41,719 nt of DNA from a virus: positions 1 to 41,719 of the IMG/VR virus record IMGVR_UViG_3300028608_000034; one strand, given 5' to 3'. A model generated the notes under the pieces. The model saw only the letters and a program-made list of their open reading frames with translations, ran no database searches and was not told the DNA's origin. Below are positions 18,079 through 20,556 of this stretch, in pieces. The position numbers and the translations under genes are program-made. How positions within the stretch are numbered: position 1 is the first letter of the stretch; each line of letters opens with the position of its first letter.

Positions 18079-18516
18079 ATGGCCACTTCGAAGAACACCA
18101 AGGCAGCGGTCCTCGAGGACGAGTCGGTCGAGGCGGAGGTCGCCGAGCTGACCCCGAAGCAGATCATCAACGAGGGCATCGTCAAGGTCCTCGAGGCGTC
18201 GGGCGTCGGCGTCCAGCACGCACGGTACAAGGCCATGCGAGCCATCGCCTACCAGGCGTTCGTCGAGGCCATCGAGTCGGACGACTTCGAGGGTCTGGTC
18301 GACCGCGCCATCGCCGGTCTCGACGAGCTCCCCTCCGGCTGGGAGATCGAGAAGCACGCGGCCGAGGAGGAGGCCCCGAAGCCCGCAGCCAAGCGCGCGT
18401 CGGCCAAGGCCCCCGCCAAGGAGGAGGCCCCCGCCAAGGCTCCGGCCAAGCGCGCCCCGCGTGCCGCAGCAGCCAAGGCCCCGGCCGCGACCGCTCGCAA
18501 GCGCCCCTCGCGCTGA
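18079..18516 (+). CDS. Histone-like protein with Lys/Ala/Pro-rich tail
   Basis: Protein of 145 residues. Residues 15-90 are a small acidic helical domain (GIVKVLEASGVGVQHARYKA). Residues 97-145 are a low-complexity basic tail of repeated AKAPAK/AAAKAP units ending in RKRPSR, like the tails of actinobacterial HU and histone H1. The tail should bind DNA non-specifically; the head domain may give specificity or self-association. It has its own promoter and a strong terminator, so it is a single-gene unit probably made in quantity. The function as a nucleoid or replication accessory protein is inferred. Confidence 0.65.
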   Translation: MATSKNTKAAVLEDESVEAEVAELTPKQIINEGIVKVLEASGVGVQHARYKAMRAIAYQAFVEAIESDDFEGLVDRAIAGLDELPSGWEIEKHAAEEEAPKPAAKRASAKAPAKEEAPAKAPAKRAPRAAAAKAPAATARKRPSR

Positions 18517-18526
18517 GCACCAGACG

Positions 18527-18565
18527 CACCCCTCGTCACCTGACCCGAACAGGTGGCGGGGGGTG
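18527..18565 (+). terminator. Strong terminator after the basic-tail protein gene
   Basis: A 16-bp stem (including CACCTG / CAGGTG and CCCC / GGGG) with a 7-nt loop begins 11 bases after the stop codon and is followed by TTCTCGG. It is among the longest stems in the window. A second small hairpin (CTCGG / CCGAG, 18568-18585) follows directly. Confidence 0.7.
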
Positions 18566-18588
18566 TTCTCGGTTCTAGAGCCGAGGGT

Positions 18589-18665
18589 CGGGTGAGGCCA
18601 CACCAGGCCGGAACCATGCGCGGTGTGTTGGAAGCATGGTCCGGGTTCGATTCCCGGTCACCCAC
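18589..18665 (+). ncRNA. tRNA-like cloverleaf element upstream of the DNA polymerase gene
   Basis: A 77-nt element folds into three arms closed by an acceptor-like stem. The acceptor-like stem is CGGGTGA / TCACCCA (6 of 7 pairs). The arms are a 4-bp GGCC arm, a perfect 7-bp arm ACCATGC / GCATGGT with a 14-nt loop, and a textbook T-arm CCGGG-TTCGATT-CCCGG. The T-arm and total length are those of a tRNA. The loop of the middle arm is twice the size of an anticodon loop and no anticodon stem of 5 bp with a 7-nt loop was found. It is probably a decayed tRNA or a tRNA mimic in the polymerase leader, not a working tRNA. Confidence 0.45.
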
Positions 18666-18693
18666 AAGTCAACAACAAGTAGGAGTCCACCCT

Positions 18694-20556
18694 ATGGAAC
18701 TGATGATCAGCGATGACTGGGCTGAGGTCGAAGAGTACCTGGCCCTCTCAGACGACATCACGTACTTCGACATCGAGACGACGGCCCTGACCGTCGGGCA
18801 CGGCCAGATCCTGTGTATCGCCCTGGCACCCCTGGACCGTGACGACGTCATGGTGTGGTGGCCCAGCAGCGAGGCTGAGATCGCCAAGCTGCGCATCCGC
18901 AGGGGTGCCGCCCACAACTCACCCTTCGACACCCGCTGGCTCTGCAGCTACGGAGCGAAGATCCGGGTCGTGTGGGACACCATGCTGATGGCCTACCTGC
19001 AGGACGAGAACCACCCCATCGGCCTCAAGGACCAGGGCATGCGGCACCTGGGGCTCGAGGACTGGTCCGACCCGAACGTCAAGTCGCTCGGCGAGGAGTT
19101 CGGCCAGTTCTGGGAGGACCGGGTCAAGATACCTCGTGTGGCCTGGAAGCTGAGCAAGAAGCGCGTCAGCATCTACGCGGGCAAGGATGCCCACATCGGG
19201 CGCGAACTGCTCAAGCACCAGCGCCGCCACAACAAGCGCAACCTCCGGCCGGGTGAGAACCCTGTCCGCATCATGCGGGACATCATGCTCCCTGCGGTCA
19301 AGCCCCTCCAGGAGATGGAGGCGAACCGCATGCCGGTCCGGATGGGCATGGTCAAGAAGACCAAGGAGCGCGTCCAGGCGGAGATCGCCAAGATCGAGCA
19401 GCAGCTTGAGAAGTCCATCCCGCCGAAGGACCGCTGGCCCTCGTTCGTCAAGTCGGTCAACTGGGGCAATTCCAACTGGACTAAGTGGTGGCTCTTCATC
19501 CACCAGGGCGCGGTCTGCCCCGCAGTCGGCAAGCCCTCCAAGACCTGGCCCGATGGGGTGCCCAGCCTGTCCGCCGAGAACCTCAATAAGATCGACCACC
19601 CCGCAGCCAGGCTCCTCGTCAAGCGCGCAACCCTGTACAAGCAACTGACCGGGTTCCTTATCCCCATCGAGGAGCGCACGCGGGACGGTAGGATCGGCAC
19701 CAGCTTCAAGCTCACCGGTACGGTCACGGGCAGGCTCTCCAGCAGCAGCCCGAGCGACGAGGACCCTGGGCTGAACAGTCAGCAGATCCCGCGCGACAAG
19801 GCCACACGTAACCTCTTCGGGGAGAAGGGCCTCGCCTGGATCGAGGTAGACTTCAGCCAGCTCGAGCTCCGCATCGTCGCGCGCCTTGCCAACGACCCCA
19901 CCATGATCCGGCTCTTCGAGGAGGGCACGGACATTCACACGTTCATGGCGCACAAGCTGGTCGACGCTGACGAGCTCACCAAGGAGCACCGCTCGCTCGC
20001 CAAGGGTGTCAACTTCGGGTTCGTGTACGGCATGCGCGAGAAGCACTTCGCGGACTACGTGCGGGAGAACTACGGGGTCATCATCAACCCCAAGGACGCA
20101 GGCAAGTTCCGCGCCGAGTTCTTCAACACGTTCGGTTCGCTGGAGGACTGGTACCGGAAGCAGCGTCGGGAGGCCATCGAGTACGGTGGGGTCCACAACG
20201 AGTTCGGCCGGTTCCGCCACTTGCCCAAGGTGTACAACGACGATTACTGGGTGCAGGAGAACGCCTTCCGCCAGGCGATCAACAGTCCGGTCCAGTCGCT
20301 AGGCTCGGACTTCATGCTCATCAGTCTGGGCCGAATTGCTCGGGACTTGCGGGTCCGGGAGTTGGGTGCTAGACTCATTACCACTGTCCACGACAGCGTG
20401 TGCTTGACGGCCCCGTACAGCACCGCGCGCAAGGTGGGCAGGATTGTTCAACAGACTATGGAAAAGGCTGACGATGGTCTCACGCGCAAGTTCTTCCTCA
20501 AGGCAGACGTCACGATCTCGCGATGCTGGGGAGGCGAGCCCCTTGCGGAATTCTAA
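18694..20556 (+). CDS. DNA polymerase, family A, with 3'-5' exonuclease
   Basis: Replicative DNA polymerase I-type enzyme of 620 residues. The exonuclease motifs are complete: YFDIET (Asp26, Glu28), HNSPFD (Asn75, Asp79) and YAGKDAH (Tyr161, Asp165). The polymerase motifs are VDFSQLELR (motif A, Asp386), RSLAKGVNFGFVYG (motif B, 433-446) and TTVHDSV (motif C, His566-Asp567). There is no N-terminal 5'-nuclease domain. ATG at 18694 is chosen because AGGAG lies 8 bases upstream; the frame is open further back but runs into the hairpin region. A promoter-like element lies inside the 3' end (20347-20375). Confidence 0.93.
   Translation: MELMISDDWAEVEEYLALSDDITYFDIETTALTVGHGQILCIALAPLDRDDVMVWWPSSEAEIAKLRIRRGAAHNSPFDTRWLCSYGAKIRVVWDTMLMAYLQDENHPIGLKDQGMRHLGLEDWSDPNVKSLGEEFGQFWEDRVKIPRVAWKLSKKRVSIYAGKDAHIGRELLKHQRRHNKRNLRPGENPVRIMRDIMLPAVKPLQEMEANRMPVRMGMVKKTKERVQAEIAKIEQQLEKSIPPKDRWPSFVKSVNWGNSNWTKWWLFIHQGAVCPAVGKPSKTWPDGVPSLSAENLNKIDHPAARLLVKRATLYKQLTGFLIPIEERTRDGRIGTSFKLTGTVTGRLSSSSPSDEDPGLNSQQIPRDKATRNLFGEKGLAWIEVDFSQLELRIVARLANDPTMIRLFEEGTDIHTFMAHKLVDADELTKEHRSLAKGVNFGFVYGMREKHFADYVRENYGVIINPKDAGKFRAEFFNTFGSLEDWYRKQRREAIEYGGVHNEFGRFRHLPKVYNDDYWVQENAFRQAINSPVQSLGSDFMLISLGRIARDLRVRELGARLITTVHDSVCLTAPYSTARKVGRIVQQTMEKADDGLTRKFFLKADVTISRCWGGEPLAEF
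20347..20375 (+). promoter_or_regulatory. Promoter-like sequence inside the polymerase gene
   Basis: A -35 TTGCGG and a -10 TAGACT are separated by 17 bp, with the rare codon AGA in the -10. The next gene starts 168 bp downstream. It could give the recombination genes a separate transcript. Confidence 0.4.

Follow-up and report, generated by a model that had tools for sequence, protein, structure and literature searches.

The human mascRNA and menRNA (RF01684) are tRNA-like elements within longer transcripts, in which the acceptor and T-arm are kept, the D-arm is reduced and the arm at the anticodon position is altered and non-decoding. The elbow of mascRNA recruits RNase P and RNase Z, by which the RNA is cut (PMC11693755). 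RNase P of bacterial hosts also processes phage transcripts, namely the C4 antisense RNA of phages P1 and P7 and the M3 RNA, and its further substrates include pre-tmRNA and mRNAs such as that of T4 gene 32 (PMC11143913). Extensively truncated tRNA is tolerated by the bacterial enzyme (PMC4919922). In mitochondrial and polycistronic transcripts, tRNAs or tRNA-like elements situated between two reading frames serve as punctuation, and their excision frees both mRNAs. Structured leaders are also known from genes for phage replication proteins, as in the translational operators of T4 gp43 and gp32. The gp43 operator is a small hairpin.

The tRNA-like structure (TLS) described here lies in the leader of a DNA polymerase gene in a 41.7-kb virus record (IMG/VR), which was analyzed as a whole and is referred to as the window. 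The window is related to Microbacterium phages of the genus Ilzatvirus, actinobacteriophage cluster EA. Like mascRNA, the TLS keeps acceptor and T-arm, has a reduced D-arm and carries an altered, non-decoding arm at the anticodon position; unlike mascRNA, which occupies the 3' end of long nuclear RNAs, it is located in a phage mRNA leader, and there is no homology between the two. Processing by host RNase P, which it would share with C4 and M3 RNA, is proposed for the TLS, and an excision of the kind seen in tRNA punctuation is possible, although the TLS is not a tRNA. C4 RNA differs in being an antisense regulator and not a swappable element in front of a DNA polymerase gene. Canonical phage tRNA genes (RF00005) are the evident ancestor, but these possess a usable anticodon arm, whereas the TLS is nearly always without one and is fixed in an mRNA leader. 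With the T4 operators it has in common the structured leader of a replication gene; recognition by the polymerase, as for gp43, is argued against below. The features of the locus are as follows.

18079–18516, plus strand: gene upstream of the TLS, 145 aa, phrog_4077, function unknown (sequence, PHROG match)
18526–18566, plus strand: strong G+C-rich hairpin of 17 bp with a 7-nt loop, after the stop codon of the upstream gene (seen when the 75 upstream nt and when the entire leader were folded)
18567–18586, plus strand: second hairpin of 8 bp, TCTCGGTT-CTAG-AGCCGAGG, directly 5' of the cloverleaf (fold)
18589–18665, plus strand: TLS in the DNA polymerase leader (sequence, fold, motif scan, covariation)
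18590–18595, plus strand: acceptor-like stem, 5' strand GGGTGA, pairing with 18658–18663 (covariation)
18596–18609, plus strand: D-like arm GGCC-ACACCA-GGCC (fold)
18613–18640, plus strand: middle (anticodon-position) arm ACCATGC/GCATGGT with the 14-nt loop GCGGTGTGTTGGAA (stem covaries in the Ilzatvirus type)
18641–18657, plus strand: T-arm CCGGG-TTCGATT-CCCGG (sequence, motif scan, covariation)
18658–18665, plus strand: acceptor-like stem, 3' strand TCACCC, then an A at the discriminator position and a C; CCA is not encoded
18666–18693, plus strand: linker rich in A and C, with the ribosome-binding site (AGGAG) for the polymerase (sequence)
18694–20556, plus strand: family A DNA polymerase gene, 620 aa (Pfam PF00476, E 5.8e-63; PHROG 17)

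An earlier note, made from the letters of this DNA, had described a tRNA-like cloverleaf at 18589–18665 that lacks an anticodon loop and ends 28 nt before the polymerase ATG at 18694. Letters, fold and measured distance bear this out. The window TLS consists of a 6-bp acceptor stem, with C18589 unpaired opposite A18664, a 4-bp D-like arm, a 7-bp middle arm with its 14-nt loop and a textbook T-arm; the 5-bp anticodon stem, 7-nt loop and U33 of a tRNA (RF00005) are missing. Its D-loop is complementary to GGTGT of the middle-arm loop, and a kissing contact between CACC of the D-loop and GGTG of the middle loop, both invariant in the Ilzatvirus type, is possible. Free energy alone is weak evidence for the element, as 13 of 200 shuffled sequences folded equally well (77 nt, z -2.0). 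Over the entire 184 nt of the leader, structure is strong: z is -3.2, and none of 200 shuffles was as good.

Searches with tRNA and RNA family models detected no normal tRNA in the window: ARAGORN reported zero tRNAs and no Rfam family reached its gathering score. The best-scoring Rfam match of the TLS is mascRNA-menRNA (RF01684), at 23.2 bits well below the gathering score of 42.5 bits, followed by tRNA-Sec with a sub-threshold 21.9 bits. Consequently, and in the absence of a canonical anticodon arm, a plain tRNA was rejected. In relatives, detection by such programs is mixed; the elements of eleven of them, at the same site, score 34–50 bits with the tRNA model RF00005, while the window copy remains below threshold. 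A strict motif, defined as an acceptor of at least 6 out of 7 bp, a perfect 5-bp T stem and a TTCRA loop, has a single match in the 41.7-kb window, at the TLS. Among the scanned related loci it was found at most once per locus, on the sense strand and always in the polymerase leader, compared with 13 matches per 2.5 Mb (about 0.001 per leader) in random sequence of similar dinucleotide make-up. A chance fold is ruled out by the rarity of the motif together with the stem covariation described below.

The leader has a recurrent architecture. Phage Ilzat has a stretch of approximately 20 kb of co-directional genes that mostly overlap or are tightly spaced, and the widest gap in it is the 199-nt leader of the polymerase gene. 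A strong hairpin comparable to that of the window precedes every folded TLS, usually at a distance of 0–10 nt (about 20 nt at most, in loci L005 and L023), and this gap is usually too small for a promoter; the A/C-rich linker and the ribosome-binding site come after the TLS. The earlier note had placed the element behind a very strong terminator. The strong hairpin exists, but it has no U-tract and a terminator scan made no call, so that it is not a consensus intrinsic terminator. The second hairpin lies between it and the cloverleaf. This second, 8-bp hairpin belongs to the Ilzatvirus type and is absent from most other types. In L027 and L049, a second hairpin is located directly 3' of the TLS (GGGAGGCTGAAAAGCCTCCC and GGGAGCCTGAGAAGGCTCCC, respectively). 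The phrog_4077 protein, encoded between the helicase and polymerase genes, has a Lys/Ala/Pro-rich basic C-terminal tail like those of histone-like proteins.

The leader of the window is matched by 137 phage records (blastn), and 191 Microbacterium phages encode a polymerase 60–80% identical to that of the window. A tRNA-like element was present in all 20 GenBank Microbacterium cluster EA loci examined, between the same two flanking genes, and at the same site in 30 of 32 IMG/VR relatives with a complete leader, the exceptions being L022 and L026. No such element was found in the leaders of Gordonia, Mycobacterium and Streptomyces phages with polymerases of roughly 32–37% identity (L042–L045), and IMG/VR relatives with approximately 25% identity in the polymerase gave no convincing element, only weak, chance-like matches. 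Cluster EA phages are lytic and have a leftward replication operon, according to their published description (PMC7302621). The open-access literature yielded no earlier description of the TLS. A non-decoding tRNA mimic in the polymerase leaders of cluster EA is thus real, conserved and, within that literature, unreported.

The capacity for decoding has been lost almost everywhere. A canonical anticodon arm exists in only two lineages: L015/L016 with the anticodon CAA and L024/L025/L057 with CAU and two mismatched acceptor pairs (L057 by eye); an anticodon-arm match in L027 falls within a larger stem-loop and was not counted. The site in L024 (1278–1349), L025 and L057 holds a near-complete tRNA-Met (CAU), perhaps a recently captured or an eroding tRNA. 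Elsewhere, the middle arm is virtually absent (Zepp, Clock, L060), comprises 6–7 bp with a loop of 14–15 nt (window, Golden, Pikmin) or 8 bp with a 20-nt loop (L027), or is replaced by a middle region of 93 nt (Eleri, Zenitsu). GenBank annotation reflects this variety: the element is labeled tRNA-Pro in ChickenKing, tRNA-Phe in Pherbot and Golden, tRNA-Ser in ColaCorta and tRNA-Undet in Clock, and while it is annotated as a tRNA in L003, L006, L040, L048 and L049, it is unannotated in L004, L008 and L041. The cluster EA paper mentions a tRNA-Ala (PMC7302621), which we take to be the TLS because the sites examined showed no other tRNA.

Selection on the remaining parts was assessed in 29 distinct element versions, by aligning the stems alone, cut out and linked through A spacers, rather than contiguous natural sequence; the spacer columns were excluded from pair counts. 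Of the cells of the acceptor and T stems, 96.8% are paired, and 10 of 12 pairs show two-sided changes. The covariation score is 0.751; shuffling gave 0.245 ± 0.022, and sliding the partners gave no more than 0.126. Pairs 4:69, 6:67, 7:66 and 49:65 each occur as five standard pair types. Most versions have the 7-bp acceptor of a tRNA (6 bp in the window) and nearly all a perfect 5-bp T-arm; the T-loop TTCRA is invariant, and pairs 52–62 and 53–61 are G-C throughout. Among the 8 sequences of the Ilzatvirus type, covariation extends to the 7-bp middle stem, with two-sided changes in four pairs, and the middle-loop motif CGGTGTG is unchanged. Pairing is therefore conserved in relatives, where its lack had been named by the earlier note as evidence against the cloverleaf, and the element qualifies as the tRNA mimic that the note had considered, with acceptor and T-arm kept and the decoding arm lost or altered.

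The commonest 3:70 pair is G3:U70 (11 of 29 versions), and the acceptor has few G-U pairs at its other positions. These G-U pairs, chiefly at 3:70, disfavor a DNA-level cruciform. G3:U70 is the identity pair of alanyl-tRNA synthetase (AlaRS), and A73 is present in most versions, with ACCA encoded in six. Along with the invariant middle loop of the Ilzatvirus type, these traits would suit a free small RNA that is excised by RNase P and Z, receives CCA and acts in trans, for example after charging by AlaRS or through contact with EF-Tu or some other tRNA factor of the host; its site at the polymerase gene would be inherited rather than functional. This scenario is unlikely: 17 of 29 versions have A-U or G-C at 3:70, so that a universal role as AlaRS substrate is unsupported, the normal 3' end is missing in many versions, and the site has stayed fixed despite exchange of the element between phages.

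The distance of the TLS from the polymerase start codon bears on a rather unlikely second alternative, in which the folded leader itself, bound by a host tRNA-binding factor, would act without being cleaved and control either the access of ribosomes to the polymerase mRNA or the decay of this mRNA. In lineages without a pseudoknot, the TLS is always 24–51 nt from the start codon, as expected for a cis element of this kind. In other lineages, this distance is 79–231 nt, too far for direct occlusion, and the last 30–60 nt before the start codon contain an H-type pseudoknot, GCGG-UUU-AGUC-U-CCGU-UGAAC-GACU, just 5' of the Shine-Dalgarno sequence (L007, L018, L019, L024, L027, L031, L037, L038, L047, L049, L054, L056, L057, L060). 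As MAFFT misaligned the pseudoknots, covariation was calculated from stem pieces of equal length; 98.6% of cells are paired and 5 of 8 pairs show two-sided changes, with a score of 0.549 against 0.227 when shuffled. Its last strand, GACUCC, is by eye complementary to GGAGUC of the ribosome-binding site, and therefore the pseudoknot and a sequestered ribosome-binding site may be alternative states. The presence of this covarying structure suggests translational-type control of the polymerase leader, and the pseudoknot is a better candidate than the TLS for regulating translation of the polymerase. The pseudoknot has no match in Rfam and is closer in form to the T4 gp32 operator. A search for its motif in the window was negative, and the fold of the window leader shows no structure trapping the ribosome-binding site together with the TLS.

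Mapping of element types onto the polymerase tree revealed that the TLS behaves as an exchangeable cassette and is not strictly essential. The polymerases of Eleri (L031) and ColaCorta (L049) are 99.2% identical, yet their elements measure 124 and 67 nt and have unrelated middles. Likewise, Mandalorian (L038) and Juanyo (L047) differ in element type with polymerases 95.3% identical and near-identical flanks. Conversely, the type with TACCCCAAC is present before polymerases of four separate clades. L022 has no element, while its polymerase is 99.5% identical to that of L023 and both DNA flanks are approximately 97% identical, representing a natural deletion or empty site. Wherever the element occurs, it adjoins the polymerase gene, which would agree with the autoregulatory operator for the phage's own polymerase that the earlier note had put forward by analogy to T4 gp43. 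However, such an operator should change along with its polymerase, and near-identical polymerases with unrelated or absent elements make recognition by the polymerase very unlikely. Since the rest of the element is exchanged, whatever reads it probably uses the acceptor and T-arm, i.e., is part of the host tRNA machinery.

A tRNA gene that is decaying and carried neutrally is a highly improbable explanation. Descent from a tRNA is clear from the sequences, the anticodon arm is retained in two lineages and L022 lacks the element altogether, but paired changes keep the stems intact across polymerases that differ by 22–38% in protein sequence from that of the window, and under neutral decay the acceptor and T-arm should erode as quickly as the anticodon arm. 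The decayed phage tRNA of the earlier note is accordingly right as to origin, while a neutral pseudogene is disfavored by the compensatory changes among the 29 versions; the TLS is not a working tRNA and not a decaying one. Rapid exchange of the variable arm between near-identical phages would also fit a role of the TLS as bait for anticodon nucleases of the host or for defense toxins that cleave tRNA, an arms race having shaped this arm. Such a decoy function is very unlikely, as almost no version retains the anticodon loop that such nucleases would cut and the fixed site is left unexplained.

As the best explanation, held tentatively and with somewhat less than even confidence, we propose that the TLS is an mRNA punctuation signal, placed just after a 3'-protecting hairpin and cut by host RNase P and perhaps RNase Z. 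In this model, RNase P would read the stacked acceptor/T-arm and the T-loop elbow and cut at the 5' side of the TLS, and RNase Z or an exonuclease might act at its 3' side. Cleavage would split the polymerase message from the upstream message for the helicase and basic protein, leave the latter with a strong protective 3' hairpin (18526–18566 in the window) and fix the 5' end of the polymerase message, and hence its stability and translation. The middle arm would be dispensable for cutting and thus free to become shorter or longer or to be exchanged. In agreement with this model, the parts that are kept are those read by bacterial RNase P and the parts that are lost are the decoding ones, the acceptor/T-arm stack and elbow being seen at the level of secondary structure and covariation. 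In addition, the base at position -1 is U or A in 19 of 26 elements with 7-bp acceptors, in a G+C-rich genome. On the other hand, bacterial RNase P prefers an RCCA end, and although A73-C74 is found in most versions, a full ACCA after the stem is rare (6 distinct versions; the window reads ACAAG), and the window TLS is among the least tRNA-like, with no GG in the D-loop, a 6-bp acceptor and a score below the Rfam tRNA threshold. Moreover, L022 and L026 manage without the element. Covariation of the middle stem and invariance of its loop also indicate that this arm is not free in the Ilzatvirus type, where something may read it.

More generally, it is possible, though we hold this with lower confidence, that non-decoding tRNA mimics serve as one-site cassettes in cis, exchanged within a large phage group, through which host enzymes of tRNA processing gain control of the polymerase message. 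The anticodon-position arm would then have been re-used as a module that differs between lineages, and the mimic would, in many of them, be accompanied by a pseudoknot competing for the ribosome-binding site. If true, the TLS would be a DNA-phage counterpart of mascRNA-type tRNA mimicry. The element is present throughout a phage group with more than 100 sequenced isolates and a laboratory host in routine use, so that its function is directly testable. Most of the “single tRNA genes” that annotation assigns to this site in these phages are not decoding tRNAs, and claims about codon supply that are based on them are therefore unsafe.
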